The notes beneath the pieces are model-generated. The model had not been told where the DNA came from. It ran no database searches and worked only from the letters and a program-made list of their open reading frames with translations. A DNA stretch of 64,000 nt from Antrihabitans stalagmiti (GTDB lineage: Bacteria > Actinomycetota > Actinomycetes > Mycobacteriales > Mycobacteriaceae). Shown one piece after another: positions 42,692 to 58,234 of this stretch (positions within the stretch are counted from its first letter, which is position 1; each line of letters opens with the position of its first letter). The stretch is from positions 682,001-746,000 of the forward strand of contig NZ_JAEMNV010000001.1 in NCBI RefSeq assembly GCF_016482825.1. Direction: 5' to 3'. The translations under genes and the position numbers were made by a program.

Positions 42692-42801
42692 CCCGTGTCT
42701 GCCGGTCGGTGCGGCGCGGGTGCCGACGATACGGTTGACCGACAGATCATCCCGTCGACGAGACGGCGATGCTTGTGACGTTTCGGAGGAGGCTTGGGAG
42801 A

Positions 42802-44466
42802 ATGGGCTCACGGGAGTCACGCGTCGGCTCACGGTTCGGTCCGTACGAACTGCGGACACTGCTCGGCAAGGGCGGGATGGGCGAGGTCTACGAGGCGTAC
42901 GACACGGTGAAAGATCGCACCGTCGCAGTGAAGATCCTGTTCGAAGACCTTGGCAAAGATCCGACCTACCAGGAGCGGTTCCGCCGCGAATCGCATTCCG
43001 CGGCGCGGTTGCAGGAACCACACGTCATCCCGATTCACGACTGGGGCGAAATCGACGGTGTCCTCTACATCGACATGCGGTTGGTCCGCGGTCAGGATCT
43101 ACGCTCGCTCCTGCGGCAGACCGGACCCCTTTCGCCTGCTCGTGCCGTCGCGATCGTCGGCCAGATCGCCGCAGCATTGGATGCTGCCCACGCGGACAAC
43201 CTGATTCATCGTGACGTGAAGCCCGAGAACATCCTGATCACCGGCGACGACTTCGCCTATCTCGTCGACTTCGGAATCGTCCGCTCCGACAACGATTCCA
43301 AGCTCACGTCTCTCGGCGAGACCATCGGCTCGTATGCCTACATGGCGCCCGAGCGTTTCGACGACCTGCCGACCACCTCCAGCGCCGATGTGTACTCGCT
43401 GGCATGTGTGCTCTACGAATGCCTCACCGGATCAAAGGCTTTCGGCGGAACGAGTGTCAATCAGCTGATCAGAGCGCACGTCGTCGGCCGACCTCCCGTG
43501 CCGAGCCGAGCGCGGCACGGAATCCCGATCGCCTTCGACGAAGTGATCGCGCGCGGAATGGCGAAGGAACCGATCGACCGGTATCGCAGCGCAGGCGAAC
43601 TGTCACGTGCCGCCTACGACGCCTTGAGCAACCCCGATCGGTACACCGCCAGCGAAATCGTCGATCGATCCGGCGACGCAACCACCGTCAACTTCACCGA
43701 CGACCGCACGCGGACCTCTCGGCCTGCGCCGCGACCTGCCCCTCGACCTGACCCGACACCGCCGACCCGGGTGAACACTCCCGCGCCGCAACAGTTCTGG
43801 CCTACGCCCGCGCCGCAGAGCTATGGGCCCGCGCCAGGTCCGATGACGCCGAATCCCATCACGTCGTACCCGCCGCCACCGGTGCCACCGTCGCGCAACT
43901 CCAACATCCGGCCGGTTCTGCTCACACTTCTCGCGGTCGCGGTCGTTGCCCTGCTCGGCGCAGGAGCCTGGTTCGCGGTGACGCAGACGTCGAAGGACGA
44001 CAACGCGACGACAGCTACCAGTGCGGCCACTCCCCCGCCGGAGACGACCGAGCCTGCGACGCAACCGGATTCGACAGATCGGCCGACCACCACCGCCCCG
44101 CGGACCCCGACGACACAAGCGTTGCCGCCGCTGTCGGGCTCGGTCTCGGGAGCGGACGACCAAGGCTTCGTCGACGTGTCCGGCGCCCGCTGCAACGACA
44201 CGAATCAAGCCTTGGCAATAGGCCGGACCCCCAGTTCGACCGTCGTGGTGTGCAGAACCGGTGTCGGCCGGATGTACTACAAGGGCGTTCGATCCAGCGA
44301 TGGAGCCAGCATTGCCCTCGACGATCCGCAGCAGGTAGGCGCGGGGTTCGTCGTCGTCAACAAAACCGACGGCACGCAGTACCGCATCGACTCCTCGTCG
44401 CTGACGATCGTTCAGAACGGCACGATCGTGGCATCGGAGCCGATGGTCGAGTACGCGTCACGCTGA
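42802..44466 (+). CDS. Ser/Thr protein kinase, PknB family, membrane-anchored
   Basis: A 554-residue receptor kinase. The kinase domain (about 16-275) has the Gly loop GKGGMGEVYEA (23-33), the Lys in AVKIL (about 46), HRDVKPENI (about 137-145), DFGIV (about 157) and APE (about 184), so it should be active. A Pro-rich juxtamembrane part (about 300-370) precedes one transmembrane helix (VLLTLLAVAVVALLGAGAWF, about 374-393). The outside part has a Thr/Pro linker and a small domain with two Cys (GARCNDTN, VVVCRTG). No PASTA repeats are seen. It overlaps the convergent LeuA-like gene by nine bases. The signal it senses is unknown. Confidence 0.9.
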   Translation: MGSRESRVGSRFGPYELRTLLGKGGMGEVYEAYDTVKDRTVAVKILFEDLGKDPTYQERFRRESHSAARLQEPHVIPIHDWGEIDGVLYIDMRLVRGQDLRSLLRQTGPLSPARAVAIVGQIAAALDAAHADNLIHRDVKPENILITGDDFAYLVDFGIVRSDNDSKLTSLGETIGSYAYMAPERFDDLPTTSSADVYSLACVLYECLTGSKAFGGTSVNQLIRAHVVGRPPVPSRARHGIPIAFDEVIARGMAKEPIDRYRSAGELSRAAYDALSNPDRYTASEIVDRSGDATTVNFTDDRTRTSRPAPRPAPRPDPTPPTRVNTPAPQQFWPTPAPQSYGPAPGPMTPNPITSYPPPPVPPSRNSNIRPVLLTLLAVAVVALLGAGAWFAVTQTSKDDNATTATSAATPPPETTEPATQPDSTDRPTTTAPRTPTTQALPPLSGSVSGADDQGFVDVSGARCNDTNQALAIGRTPSSTVVVCRTGVGRMYYKGVRSSDGASIALDDPQQVGAGFVVVNKTDGTQYRIDSSSLTIVQNGTIVASEPMVEYASR

Positions 44467-46160: not shown

Positions 46161-46859
46161 TCAGCCCCGTGGTCGCAGCATCGCCGGATGCAGAGTCCGC
46201 GCGTCGCCGCGGACGTAGAGCCGCGCAGGCCGACCGCCGTCGCGTGTCGTCGTCGAACCGCTCGGTTCGACGAAGCCCGGTGTCGTCGTGACTTTGCGGT
46301 GAAAGTTGCGCGGGTCGAGCGTTGTCCCCCATACCGTTTCGTACACCCGTCGCAGCTCGGCGATAGTGAACTCCGCAGCGCAGAAGGCCGCGGCCAGCGG
46401 GGTGTACTCCAGCTTGTTGCGGGCTCGCTCGACGCCGTCGGTGAGGATGCGATGGTGATCGAACGCCAACGCGTCAGGCTGGGCGAGCACATCGGAAACG
46501 GTCAGCAATTCGACTGCGGCAGCGTCACTTCCGGCAACCGGATCAGTCAGCGTCGGCGTCAGCGCTAGGTATGCGGTCGTCACGACCCGCCCCCGCGGGT
46601 CACGGTCGGGTGCGCCGTAAGTCGCCAACTGCTCGAGGTGGACGTCGGACGAGCGCACACCGGTCTCTTCCTGAAGCTCGCGCGCTGCGGCCTGCAGCAG
46701 ATCTTCGTCGTCGAGCACGAAGCCGCCAGGCAACGCTCGCCGACCCCGAAACGGCTCTACTCCCCTACGAACCGCGAGCACAACGAGACGGTTCTGCTCG
46801 ATCGTCAGGACAACGAGGTCGACGGCAACAGCGGCGGTCGGACGCAATCGATTGGACAC
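46161..46859 (-). CDS. nrtR: NrtR-type transcriptional regulator (Nudix + winged helix)
   Basis: About 232 residues. The N-terminal Nudix domain (about 5-135) has an intact Nudix box: G, then E after five residues, then REL QEE TG (within GGFVLDDEDLLQAAARELQ and EETGV). The C-terminal winged helix (about 150-215) has FTIAELRRVYETVWG and the RNFHRKV motif found in NrtR. NrtR proteins sense ADP-ribose or NAD intermediates and repress NAD synthesis genes; many have lost the Nudix box, so this one may also hydrolyse. The frame starts at 46913, but that would put two operators inside the gene; the GTG at 46859 lies seven bases after a TATGAT box, which fits a leaderless transcript. It is divergent from the SPFH/NAD-kinase-like genes. 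Confidence 0.85.
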   Translation of the reverse strand: MSNRLRPTAAVAVDLVVLTIEQNRLVVLAVRRGVEPFRGRRALPGGFVLDDEDLLQAAARELQEETGVRSSDVHLEQLATYGAPDRDPRGRVVTTAYLALTPTLTDPVAGSDAAAVELLTVSDVLAQPDALAFDHHRILTDGVERARNKLEYTPLAAAFCAAEFTIAELRRVYETVWGTTLDPRNFHRKVTTTPGFVEPSGSTTTRDGGRPARLYVRGDARTLHPAMLRPRG

Positions 46860-46871
46860 AGCCACATCATA

Positions 46872-46888
46872 ATCGTCGACTTGACGAT
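46872..46888. promoter_or_regulatory. putative NrtR operator A
   Basis: ATCGTCGACTTGACGAT is an inverted repeat (ATCGTC-N5-GACGAT) upstream of nrtR and overlapping its promoter. It matches site B, 34 bp away, in 12 of 17 positions including both GTC..GAC arms. Confidence 0.65.
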
Positions 46889-46905
46889 AAGTCACGAAGC
46901 CAGTT

Positions 46906-46922
46906 ATCGTCATGTTGACGAA
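46906..46922. promoter_or_regulatory. putative NrtR operator B
   Basis: ATCGTCATGTTGACGAA contains CGTCA-TGT-TGACG, an exact five-base inverted repeat, and shares the ATCGTC..TTGACGA frame with site A. It ends three bases before the GGAG ribosome site of the SPFH gene, so binding there would block transcription or initiation of that operon. Confidence 0.65.
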
Positions 46923-46933
46923 AAGGAGTGGTT

Positions 46934-47935
46934 ATGGCCGACATCACGAAGTTCTGGTTCCTGCGACACCTGCGGGCCAACCCGACCGCACACATCCGCC
47001 ATCTGAACAGGGCGCGACTCGCGCACGACGGCACCGGGCAGGCCTTCTGGTTCCGGCCGCTCAACGCGGCCGTGAGCGAGATTCCCGTCGACGACCGCGA
47101 ACAACCGCTGCTCTTCCACGCGCGCACCGTCGACTTCCAGGACGTCACCGTGCAAGCCACCATCACCTACCGGGTGGCAGATCCCGCAATCGCCGCTGCC
47201 AGAATCGATTTCAGCATCGACCCCGACACCGGCGCATGGCGTGCACGCCCGCTCGAACAGGTCGGCGGACTGCTGACCGAACTGGCGCAGCAGCACGCCC
47301 TCGATCTCGTCGCGCGAATGACGTTGCCACAGGCCCTAGCGGAAGGAATGGCGTCGGTCAGGGAACGAATTGCCCGCGGACTCGGCAACGATCAGCGCAT
47401 CGTCGATACGGGTCTGGCAATAATCGACATTCGCGTCGTCGCAGTGCGCGCCGAACCCGATGTCGAACGCGCGCTGCAGACCCCGATGCGCGAGCAGGTG
47501 CAGCAGGACTCCGACAAGGCCACCTTCGAACGGCGTGCCCTTGCAGTCGAACGTGAACGTGCCATCGCGGAGAACGAATTGCAGAACCAGATCGAACTCG
47601 CCAGACGTGAAGAGCAATTGGTTGCGCAGAAGGGACAGAACGAGCGGCGACGCGCAACGGAAGCGGTTGCTGCGAACCAGGTTCACACCGAAGCGAAGGC
47701 CGCGCAGCAACGACTGCTCGCCGACGCCGAGGCAGACTCGACCCGAGTTGTCGGACTTGCGGCAGCAGACATCGAAACGGCACGGTTGGCCGCCTATCGC
47801 GATGTCGACACACACATCCTCCTGGCTCTGGCAATGGAGAAGCTGGCAGGCAATCTGCCGGAAATCGGCACTGTCAACGTCACGCCAGATCTCGTCACTG
47901 CGCTACTGAGTCGTCTCGCCACAGCGGGGACCTGA
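46934..47935 (+). CDS. SPFH/band 7 domain protein
   Basis: A 333-residue protein. About residues 10-170 form an SPFH (stomatin/flotillin) domain: PLLFHARTVDFQDVTVQATITYRVADP (split across about 58-84) is typical. Residues about 185-290 are a charged Glu/Arg/Ala helix, likely a coiled coil (ERRALAVERERAIAENELQN), followed by a C-terminal helix. No N-terminal transmembrane segment is visible, which is unusual for SPFH proteins, so it may be peripheral or form a cytoplasmic ring. GGAG lies six bases before the ATG. Its stop is one base from the next gene, and the NrtR operator B precedes it, so it is probably under NAD-dependent control. Confidence 0.86.
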   Translation: MADITKFWFLRHLRANPTAHIRHLNRARLAHDGTGQAFWFRPLNAAVSEIPVDDREQPLLFHARTVDFQDVTVQATITYRVADPAIAAARIDFSIDPDTGAWRARPLEQVGGLLTELAQQHALDLVARMTLPQALAEGMASVRERIARGLGNDQRIVDTGLAIIDIRVVAVRAEPDVERALQTPMREQVQQDSDKATFERRALAVERERAIAENELQNQIELARREEQLVAQKGQNERRRATEAVAANQVHTEAKAAQQRLLADAEADSTRVVGLAAADIETARLAAYRDVDTHILLALAMEKLAGNLPEIGTVNVTPDLVTALLSRLATAGT

Positions 47936-47936
47936 C

Positions 47937-48839
47937 ATGGCACTGCCTCCGCGCGCGGTGATCGTCTACCGCACAACCGAATTCGACGAACTGCTCAGCA
48001 GCCACGGCACGAGGGCACAGGCAGCGTTCTTCCTCGAGACGCGTGGCAGAACGCTCGACGAGGTCGAAGCCCGGCACAACGCGACCCACTCGGCGCTCGC
48101 ACGCGTGTCGTCCGCGGTGCCGATCGATTGGCGACGCGGGCAGGTCGAGCGTAAAGATCTGAGCCGCTTCGTATTCGGACCCGAGGATGTCGTTGTCGCC
48201 GTCGGACAGGACGGGTTGGTCGCGAACGTCGCCAAGTATCTCGACGCCCAACCCGTCGTCGGCGTCAACCCGGATCGCGAGCGCAATCCCGGCGTTCTCG
48301 TCGCTCACCAGCCCGGCGATGTTCGAAAAGCCCTTGCAGCAGCTGCAGATCCGGCGAAGTCGACAGGGCGGACCATGGTTCAGGCACGGCTCGACGACGG
48401 GCAATCGTTGCGCGCACTCAACGAGATCTACGTCGGGCATCCGTCGCATCAATCGGCGCGCTACCGCATTCGCACGCCGGACGGTCGCGAGGAACGTCAT
48501 TCGTCGTCGGGCGTCCTTGTCGGGTCGGGCACCGGCGCGACGGGCTGGTGCCGATCCGTGTGGTTGGAGCGGGCCAGCTCGTTGCACTTGCCCGCACCCG
48601 AGGCAGAAACGCTGTGCTGGTTTGCGCGGGAGGCGTGGCCCTCCCCCGCAACCGGAGCCGATCTGACCGAAGGCCTGATCGGCGCGGGCGAGGAGTTGAC
48701 GATAGTGGCCGAGTCCGATCTGGTGTTGTTCGGCGACGGCATCGAATCGGACACCCTCACCGTGTCGTGGGGTCAACACGTCGTTGTGTCCACCGCAGCG
48801 AATCGGCTGAAAATCGTTGGGCGGCTACGCCGCTCGTGA
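47937..48839 (+). CDS. NAD kinase-like protein with altered GGDG motif
   Basis: A 300-residue protein of the ATP-NAD kinase fold. EDVVVAVGQDGLVANVAKYL (within about 81-102) corresponds to the GGDGT motif but reads GQDG; NEIYVGHPSHQSARYRI (about 161-177) holds the NE pair, and SSGVLVGSGTGATGW (about 189-203) the conserved nucleotide-binding turn. NAD kinases make NADP, so a link to the NrtR regulator and SPFH partner is natural; the altered motif may mean another nucleotide, lower activity or a sensor role. The stop codon TGA is inside the third dispersed palindromic element, so the last residues (LRRS) are encoded by repeat sequence. Confidence 0.82.
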   Translation: MALPPRAVIVYRTTEFDELLSSHGTRAQAAFFLETRGRTLDEVEARHNATHSALARVSSAVPIDWRRGQVERKDLSRFVFGPEDVVVAVGQDGLVANVAKYLDAQPVVGVNPDRERNPGVLVAHQPGDVRKALAAAADPAKSTGRTMVQARLDDGQSLRALNEIYVGHPSHQSARYRIRTPDGREERHSSSGVLVGSGTGATGWCRSVWLERASSLHLPAPEAETLCWFAREAWPSPATGADLTEGLIGAGEELTIVAESDLVLFGDGIESDTLTVSWGQHVVVSTAANRLKIVGRLRRS

Positions 48840-56523: not shown

Positions 56524-56713
56524 CGGATCGCCCTCGCTACAGACTGTGTCCTCGTTCGGAATGTCGAAGTACAAAAGTTACCGATCTGCGGTTGGAAATC
56601 GGTTGGATCGAAACAAATCGGCAATCCAATCCGAATCCAATCTGCCGTAGCTAGGCTCCAACCGGAATTTTCTGCAGTACGGATCTGCAGGCATCGACAG
56701 GAGAATGATCGAT

Positions 56714-57448
56714 TTGAAGCACTCGAAAGCAGGAACCGCGATTCTCGCGGCGGCCGCCGTGGCAGTGAGCCTGTCCCTCGTTGGTTGCAGTGAGGACTCG
56801 AAGTCCGCGTCGTCTTCGTCGACGAGTTCCAGCGCTGCGGCGACCACGGCCGAGAGTTCCGCAAAGACCACCGAGAAGAAGAGCAAGCTCACACCGCGCA
56901 CATCGGAAGCTCCCGGATCGGGCGCGAACAAGACCATCGCGGACTACATCGTCGACAACGACATCACCGAAACCGTCGTGCACAGCGGTGACGCCGGAAG
57001 TCCCACAGTCGGTCTCCCGATTCCCGACGGCTGGGAAGACGCAAACGACAAGGCACCCGACGTCGCATACGGCGCAATTCTCTACAGCGGACCCGAAGCG
57101 GGCGAGTACCCGGTGACCGTGATCGCGATCATGTCGAAGCTCGACGGAAACGTCGATCCCGACGAACTTCTCTCCTTCGCACGGGGTGAACTGCAGAACC
57201 TGCCCGGTTTCGAGCCGTTGGCCGAGGGAACGAAGACGACTTTCAACGACTTCCCCGCATTCGAATACGGCGGAACCTACAAGGGCGACAACGGCGAAAC
57301 CCTGATTTCTGCACAGAAGACGGTTGTCGTCGAGGGTTCCGACGGCACCTACGTGATGCAGTTCAACGTCGACGGCGCCGAGGCGCAGATCGATGTCATC
57401 AAGGACGTCACCACGTTCATCGACGAAAACGTCACGATCACACCCTGA
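56714..57448 (+). CDS. LpqN/LpqT-like lipoprotein (first of a tandem pair)
   Basis: A 244-residue lipoprotein. ILAAAAVAVSLSLVGC gives a lipobox with Cys near residue 24, and a Ser/Ala/Thr-rich linker (about 28-70) follows. The LpqN domain (about 75-244) includes IPDGWEDA (about 105) and LDGNVDPDELLSFARGELQN. The TTG at 56714 is chosen because it aligns with the start of the paralogue (LKHSKAGT against MKNSRTAT) and has GGAG ten bases upstream, while the ATG at 56705 is too close to that site. In mycobacteria LpqN/T proteins sit on the outer face of the plasma membrane. The function is not settled. Confidence 0.8.
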   Translation: MKHSKAGTAILAAAAVAVSLSLVGCSEDSKSASSSSTSSSAAATTAESSAKTTEKKSKLTPRTSEAPGSGANKTIADYIVDNDITETVVHSGDAGSPTVGLPIPDGWEDANDKAPDVAYGAILYSGPEAGEYPVTVIAIMSKLDGNVDPDELLSFARGELQNLPGFEPLAEGTKTTFNDFPAFEYGGTYKGDNGETLISAQKTVVVEGSDGTYVMQFNVDGAEAQIDVIKDVTTFIDENVTITP

Positions 57449-57490
57449 TTCGATCGACTTCGGCTACACCCATACCAAGGAGTTCACCAC

Positions 57491-58234
57491 GTGAAGAATT
57501 CGAGAACTGCGACCGCCGCCATCGCGGCAGGCGCACTTGCGGTGAGTATTGCGCTCGTCGGCTGCAGCAGCGACGACAAGTCGGATTCGTCGGCTTCGAC
57601 GTCCACTACGAGCGCGGCGACGTCCTCGGCGAGCAAGTCGAGCAGCGCCGAGGCCTCCGGCAAGGCACCGAAGAGCAAGCTCACACCGAAGTCCGGCGAC
57701 ACAGCCGCTGCCAACGAGACGATCGCGACGTACATCGCCGACGAGAAGATCATCGAAACACCCGTCAAGCCTGGCGATCCGGGCGCACCGACCATCGACC
57801 TGCCGATCCCGGAGGGCTGGGAAGTCGTCGATCAGGGCGACGACTCCTACGCTGCGATCGTCTACACGGGTCCGGAAGCCGCGAACACCGACTTCCCGCC
57901 CAACTTCATCGCCATCCTCTCCAAGCTCGAAGGCAACGTCGATGCGAAGAAGCTGATCGAATACGCCGGCGGCGAGGTCAAGAACCTGCCGAACTATGCA
58001 CCGCTGCTGGAAGGTGAGGAAGGCACTCTGAGTGGCTTCCCGGCCTATCAGATCGCCGCGACCTTCGAAGACAGCGGGACGACGTACGTCATCGCTCAGA
58101 AGACCGCAGTCATCACCGGCGCCGACGGCGCCATCTACGTGCTCCAGCTCAACGGCACCAGCGACGAAACGCTGCAGGACATCCTCGGTTCTGCGACGTC
58201 GGCGGTCGACGACGGCACCACGATCACGCCGTAG
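57491..58234 (+). CDS. LpqN/LpqT-like lipoprotein (second of a tandem pair)
   Basis: A 247-residue paralogue of the upstream gene. IAAGALAVSIALVGCSSDD gives the lipobox (Cys near residue 25), a Ser/Thr/Ala linker spans about 30-70, and the LpqN domain has IPEGWEVVDQGDDSYAAIVY (within about 110-130) and LEGNVDAKKLIEYAGGEVKN. The two proteins align over the whole length, so they come from a tandem duplication. The GTG start at 57491 lies 42 bp after the first gene, so both are probably in one transcript. The gene ends 3 bp before the convergent AfsR-type regulator gene. Confidence 0.82.
   Translation: MKNSRTATAAIAAGALAVSIALVGCSSDDKSDSSASTSTTSAATSSASKSSSAEASGKAPKSKLTPKSGDTAAANETIATYIADEKIIETPVKPGDPGAPTIDLPIPEGWEVVDQGDDSYAAIVYTGPEAANTDFPPNFIAILSKLEGNVDAKKLIEYAGGEVKNLPNYAPLLEGEEGTLSGFPAYQIAATFEDSGTTYVIAQKTAVITGADGAIYVLQLNGTSDETLQDILGSATSAVDDGTTITP

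Follow-up and report, generated by a model that had tools for sequence, protein, structure and literature searches.

A stretch of 64,000 nucleotides from Antrihabitans stalagmiti (contig NZ_JAEMNV010000001.1, positions 682,001 to 746,000; genome 6.39 Mb), here called the window, contains a compact locus in which a gene for an NrtR-type regulator is divergent from a coupled pair of genes. The first gene of the pair encodes an SPFH (Band 7) protein, and the second a protein with the fold of an NAD kinase, hereafter the kinase-like protein. Two palindromes occupy the gap between nrtR and the SPFH gene. A preliminary description of the window, made from the sequence alone, had reported this arrangement, and gene calls, Pfam domains, and predicted fold all bear it out. 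The sequence supports a model in which NrtR controls a two-gene operon, with an SPFH protein and a relative of mitochondrial NADK2 as its products.

NrtR regulators, SPFH proteins, and NAD kinases are each known separately. No description of the NrtR, SPFH, and NADK2-like combination was found in the literature searched; Rodionov 2008 or Huang 2009 may contain an earlier mention. If true, the model would add a new target class for NrtR regulators and a new fixed partner for SPFH proteins. It would also give the NAD kinase of mitochondria a set of bacterial relatives. Where that enzyme came from is disputed: in those parts of the two sources that were available, the mito-clade enzyme is of ancient unknown provenance (PMC6675116) or is believed to be of alphaproteobacterial origin (PMC8553519). 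Moreover, the three-gene set is small enough for transfer, so that ligand, substrate, and assembly are directly testable.

The features of the locus, in window coordinates, are as follows.

46161–46865, minus strand: nrtR, encoding a Nudix domain and an NrtR-type winged helix; probable GTG start at 46865, judged from the onset of conservation
46870–46890, no strand: operator 1, TAATCGTCGACTTGACGATAA; its right half holds TTGACG, the predicted −35 element of the SPFH promoter
46881–46910, plus strand: promoter predicted for the SPFH-kinase operon; −35 TTGACG at 46881–46886, 18 bp, −10 TATCGT at 46905–46910
46904–46924, no strand: operator 2, TTATCGTCATGTTGACGAAAA; its left half holds TATCGT, the predicted −10 element of the SPFH promoter
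46934–47935, plus strand: SPFH/Band 7 protein, 333 amino acids; SPFH domains, a 114-residue helix (residues 175–288), and small C-terminal helices; no transmembrane segment
47937–48839, plus strand: NAD-kinase-fold protein, 300 amino acids, mitochondrial-NADK2-like; signature GQDGLVAN, NE, SSG..GTGATGW, DG

Linkage and distribution

The gene-neighbourhood search proposed beforehand in the preliminary description was carried out on genome contigs, and the trio passed it. The scan returned 138 relatives of the kinase-like protein, from which the best 80 loci were kept. In all 80 an SPFH gene lies directly upstream of the kinase-like gene (a contig end truncates one locus, L019), and 61 have a divergent nrtR no more than 500 bp from the pair. 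One base separates the SPFH and kinase-like genes in the window. Elsewhere, the SPFH stop and kinase start overlap by four bases in 48 of 83 loci; in 23 others the kinase reading frame was called too early for the junction to be resolved.

To gauge distribution, 396 Actinomycetota genomes (an even sample that includes A. stalagmiti) were searched at a threshold of 1e-20. Matches to the kinase-like protein occur in 13 genomes and to the SPFH subfamily in 14. Each of the 13 has both genes on the same strand, within 300 bp of each other; the remaining SPFH match runs up to the end of a 3,780-base contig. Among 61 genomes comprising A. stalagmiti and its relatives, seven encode the kinase-like protein (one through a weak match, 6.4e-4). 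The pair therefore is patchy in its distribution but near-inseparable. Distance correlations (0.89–0.94 over 58 loci) indicate co-inheritance, a measure that does not separate interaction from shared descent.

Plasmids carry these genes as well (57 records, 42 of them from Rhizobium). The full divergent trio was found in six of the nine plasmid loci read: two from Rhizobium and one each from Providencia, Cupriavidus, Methylomonas, and Acinetobacter. The Streptomyces and Roseomonas plasmid loci contain the pair and no nrtR match; in the Treponema locus, a Nudix gene lies some 4 kb from the pair. On the Acinetobacter lwoffii plasmid pALWED1.1 (L187), typed as mobilizable, the trio adjoins tetR(H)-tet(H); its SPFH gene is missing from the gene table and was found by tblastn. 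On the Methylomonas plasmid pUP202 (L185), the trio has a second NUDIX hydrolase gene just downstream.

Open reading frames (ORFs) were also clustered over 84 loci, with genus labels assigned by hand and each metagenome-assembled genome counted as its own genus. A fourth fixed gene was sought among the clusters and rejected: those present in at least four genera were the trio itself, shadow frames over the trio (one of them, over nrtR, in 11 genera), and scattered families, the best of which has 14 ORFs from seven genera on both strands. In A. stalactiti the trio lies between homologous flanking genes. No empty insertion site could be read; the TetR gene downstream has no close match in two genomes of the same genus that lack the kinase.

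Operators and the predicted promoter

The two palindromes lie 34 bp apart. The preliminary description had given them as 17-bp sites at 46872–46888 and 46906–46922; they are real and they match each other, but both are better read as the 21-mers listed above. It had also assigned one site to each of two promoters. Instead, the two sites together hold both hexamers of a single predicted SPFH promoter, with 18 bp between them, and a bound repressor would therefore cover −35 and −10 alike. In the reverse direction, toward nrtR, the hexamers are weaker and more varied.

Specificity was evaluated against shuffles and a reversed pattern. Within the window, allowing up to two mismatches, there were 10 strand matches against a shuffle mean of 3.55, and three of 100 shuffles reached 10; both gap sites match the plus strand with no mismatch. 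Across the whole genome, allowing up to three mismatches, there were 64 strand matches against 24 for the reversed-pattern control. Only four genomic strand matches had zero to two mismatches, and these are the two gap sites on both strands.

Conservation was evaluated in 62 gaps (61 loci and the window), with shuffles that keep base content only. The best site scored 14–16 of 16 in all 62, a range reached (14 or more) by one in 3,100 shuffled gaps. The consensus was derived from the same 62 gaps, so these scores show conservation; the independent tests are the genome-wide specificity and the unlinked Streptomyces sites described below. There are two sites in 39 gaps, one site in 21 (19 from Lentzea, plus L062 and L073), and three in two; in L062 a second site sits at the very border of the extracted sequence. 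Of the 39 two-site gaps, 35 have their sites 33 or 34 bp apart, and 33 have exact TTGACG in site 1 and exact TATCGT in site 2, 17 or 18 bp apart. That the operators contain both predicted hexamers of the SPFH promoter would account for their invariant halves and fixed spacing. Operators also persist where the regulator gene is not adjacent: among the 19 such loci, which include the truncated L019, 16 keep at least one operator upstream of the SPFH gene (best scores 13–15 of 16; a single operator in L067). A. stalactiti carries extra operator-like sites (L108, L109, and L111).

Five proteobacterial gaps use other letters, yet each contains a pair of similar 21-mers (15–17 of 21 positions alike). 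The observed likeness was reached by none of 40 shuffles for Rhizobium K102, Providencia, and Acinetobacter, by one for R. etli, and by six for Methylomonas, whose pair is not beyond chance.

Three Streptomyces genomes were searched with the operator pattern, and in each the regulator gene stands apart from the pair: about 148 kb away (G083), 88 kb away (G186), or on another contig (G303). Allowing up to two mismatches, both SPFH sites were recovered in all three genomes, and the reversed control gave zero in each. A site also lies just upstream of each unlinked nrtR: at 6428917 before 6428972 in G083, at 2472784 above 2472749 in G186, and at 87518 before 87573 in G303. The predicted operator motif thus follows both regulator and target when they are apart, and the sites upstream of the three unlinked nrtR genes suggest autoregulation.

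The three proteins

The window NrtR matches Pfam NUDIX (2.7e-18) and NrtR_WHD (6.4e-14), both over cut-off; AraR_C also is just over its own cut-off. It has the canonical Nudix box GX5EX7REUXEEXGU, which is complete in 55 of 59 recovered NrtR ORFs. The reading frame extends to 46913, through both operators; conservation in a 31-protein alignment sets the start near GTG 46865. Against the NCBIfam equivalog NF050029 (ADP-ribose-responsive repressor) the protein scores 129.5 bits, under the cut-off of 400, and is therefore related to this equivalog rather than a member of it. Palindromic operators predicted at its own and its target promoter agree with the NrtR family pattern.

A close comparison is MsNrtR of Mycobacterium smegmatis, as described in the available part of PMC6800001. 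It too joins Nudix and winged-helix domains, is encoded beside its target with a palindrome in the gap, and is apparently autoregulated; 50 mM ADP-ribose releases it from DNA. The two systems differ in operator (GTTTTCGA-N7-TCGAAAAC for MsNrtR, against a different sequence in two copies in Antrihabitans), in target (nadABC, against the predicted SPFH and kinase-like genes), and in the Nudix box, which is intact in Antrihabitans and degenerate in MsNrtR, for which hydrolase activity was not detected.

The SPFH protein matches Pfam Band_7 at 1.3e-10 (42 bits, cut-off 23.6). An AlphaFold2 single-chain model has a mean predicted local distance difference test score (pLDDT) of 87.4 and a predicted template-modelling score of 0.54. 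Its best Foldseek matches are HflK/C, stomatin, erlin, and prohibitin, then flotillin and vault, with a large root-mean-square deviation over the long helix. An N-terminal membrane anchor is usual, though not universal, in the SPFH superfamily. The preliminary description saw no transmembrane segment here, and hydropathy agrees: the top 19-residue Kyte-Doolittle mean in the window protein is 1.23, at residue 156, and no N-terminal anchor appears in 31 proteins, with 19-residue values of at most 0.63 in the first 45 residues. Whole-protein maxima among the relatives reach 1.68, in mid-chain. Prokaryotic SPFH proteins with NfeD operons or FtsH interaction (PMC2636767, available in part) likewise are encoded beside one fixed partner; here the partner has an NAD-kinase fold and the SPFH protein has no membrane anchor. 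A search of that survey's available main text for the word “kinase” gave nothing.

The kinase-like protein matches Pfam NAD_kinase only weakly (E 0.06, below cut-off). Its AlphaFold2 model (pLDDT 91.4) nevertheless has a clear NAD-kinase fold, and Foldseek matches to NADK2 and bacterial NadK uphold the fold assigned in the preliminary description. Mitochondrial NADK2, of the eukaryotic mito-clade (PDB 7r4j, 7n29), is the best match by sequence, profile, and fold. The top Foldseek match is human NADK2 (7r4l; 2.5e-18, template-modelling score 0.74), with bacterial NadK close behind (9.1e-18, 0.62). A phmmer search of the PDB gave human mitochondrial NADK2 at 3e-9 and every other chain above 0.1; the family profile gave NADK2 72.7 bits, the next chain 33.6, bacterial NadK 33.6 or less, and the NadK of A. 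stalagmiti 19.3. As judged from sequence and predicted structure, the protein is closer to mitochondrial NADK2 than to bacterial NadK.

The kinase-like protein and NADK2 share SSG and TGTG..W where bacterial NadK has DG and PTGSTAY. In contrast to NADK2, the kinase-like protein is bacterial and shorter, has GQDGLVAN rather than GGDGT, and is encoded in an operon with SPFH. Across the 84 loci the NE/D motif is kept (NE in 80, ND in three; L062, missed by the pattern, reads NE in the alignment). Region II (DG...TPTGSTAY) is only partially retained: SSG and GxG..GW are present in all 84, and the Thr is mostly kept. NAD-related chemistry is likely from family membership. The genome also encodes a separate, ordinary NAD kinase (NadK), so the trio would be an accessory system.

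Proposed mechanism and its rivals

As the likeliest reading, we propose an NrtR-repressed operon, released by an NAD-derived ligand, that makes an SPFH oligomer holding a kinase of NAD or of an NAD-derived nucleotide; in our judgment this proposal stands evenly balanced between right and wrong. NrtR would occupy both operators and cover the SPFH promoter, to be released by a ligand derived from NAD, of which ADP-ribose is the likeliest; the intact Nudix site of NrtR might also hydrolyse ADP-ribose. The operon then would yield an SPFH oligomer, soluble or peripheral, and the kinase held by it, whose target would be a ribose hydroxyl of NAD or of a nucleotide derived from NAD. Such phosphorylation may buffer or mark the pool when NAD breakdown rises. 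Repression, an ADP-ribose-type inducer, the SPFH scaffold oligomer, and NAD-type phosphorylation are all inferred.

Several observations weigh against this proposal. All 19 Lentzea gaps have one operator only, and the pair occurs with neither nrtR nor operator at two loci (L031 and L033). No SPFH-kinase fusion was found among the locus ORFs. Three motifs, including GGDG, are conserved in all NAD kinases according to the available part of PMC8553519; here GGDG is replaced, by GQDG in 83 of 84 loci and by GPDG in one. NAD kinase activity therefore is uncertain, and the protein is not called an NAD kinase. In region II, Asp is replaced by Ser and Tyr by Trp, as in NADK2. Streptomyces G083 has extra one-mismatch palindromes at 439069 and 445508 (L176 and L179; 6.4 kb apart), near unrelated genes, and two more sites with two mismatches at 3550354 and 8471267; the 439069 and 445508 palindromes are possible extra NrtR targets. 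Finally, among 199 Streptomyces genomes (kinase-like gene counted at 1e-60, nrtR at 1e-74), 190 have nrtR and 93 have the pair: nrtR is in 89 of the 93 genomes with the pair and in 101 of the 106 without it. Near universal irrespective of the pair, nrtR therefore is core in Streptomyces and not dedicated to the pair. It serves other purposes in this genus, and where it occurs does not depend on the pair; the “self-contained” system envisaged in the preliminary description finds no support as a general rule.

In a rival account, the kinase-fold protein acts on a non-NAD substrate (a sugar, a lipid, or another nucleotide) presented by SPFH as a membrane-microdomain organiser. GQDG in place of GGDG would fit, as would the annotation of several plasmid copies as “sugar kinase”, and fold relatives of SPFH do organise membranes. 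However, the nearest solved structures are those of NAD kinases, led by NADK2; the NrtR family senses NAD metabolites (in the available parts of PMC6800001 and PMC9503650); and the SPFH protein has no hydrophobic anchor. This account seems to us somewhat unlikely. A catalytically inactive protein, serving the SPFH assembly as a nucleotide-binding sensor subunit that gates its opening and closing, would explain why both the phosphate-binding loop and region II are altered. Asp92 (of GxDG), Asn162, and the C-terminal Asp-Gly nevertheless are invariant in an alignment of 34 proteins (Actinomycetota, Rhizobium, Roseomonas, and Treponema), an invariance that suggests chemistry and leaves the sensor idea improbable. 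Also improbable, in our view, is a broader version of the NrtR-repressed, SPFH-held kinase: an ancient mobile bacterial module, with a soluble prohibitin/HflK-like cage around or anchoring an NADK2-type kinase that acts on NAD/ADP-ribose, from which the mitochondrial NAD kinase descends or to whose family it is sister.

The preliminary description had also raised a role in phage defence, and an NAD/ADP-ribose-sensing defence system would suit the patchy distribution (7/61 relatives, own genome included; 13/396) and the plasmid carriage. Nudix transcription factors do occur in proposed anti-viral ADP-ribose systems (section 3.8 of PMC9503650, available in part), and the Nudix domain has a weak PADLOC match to PDC-S07 (E 0.0006). 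The kinase has no PADLOC match, however, and the best for SPFH is Aga_Helical-REase, at 0.013. Neither the ten neighbours tested in the window nor those that recur elsewhere make up a defence island; neighbour matches to PD-T4-6, mad3, and CARF-type systems read as ordinary kinase, ABC, and regulator homology. No tblastn match was found at 1e-5 in 50,697 phage records, and none of six viral-contig stretches that matched a pattern was confirmed. With the PDC-S07 match as its one weak lead and no phage, viral-contig, or neighbourhood link, the defence role appears very improbable.

The ADP-ribosylglycohydrolase systems of PMC9503650 resemble the trio in placing genes of NAD/ADP-ribose chemistry under a Nudix regulator. 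The likeness extends to a second NrtR paralogue of Streptomyces (L165 and L171), about 56–58% identical to the window NrtR, which is followed by a gene that by eye is ADP-ribosylglycohydrolase-like. In G303 (L171) a TTATAGTC...GACTATAA site lies upstream of this paralogue. In contrast to those systems, no ADP-ribosylglycohydrolase, phosphatase, or chaperone is among the recurrent genes at trio loci, and SPFH was not found in the available part of PMC9503650.

Two further observations concern the rest of the window. A Ser/Thr protein kinase gene at 42769–44466, which by eye seems to encode a membrane segment after the kinase domain, has PD-T4-6 as its strongest PADLOC match; this is probably ordinary kinase homology. 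On the plus strand at 56705–58234, two tandem genes encode 247-residue proteins with similar lipoprotein-like starts, as judged by eye.

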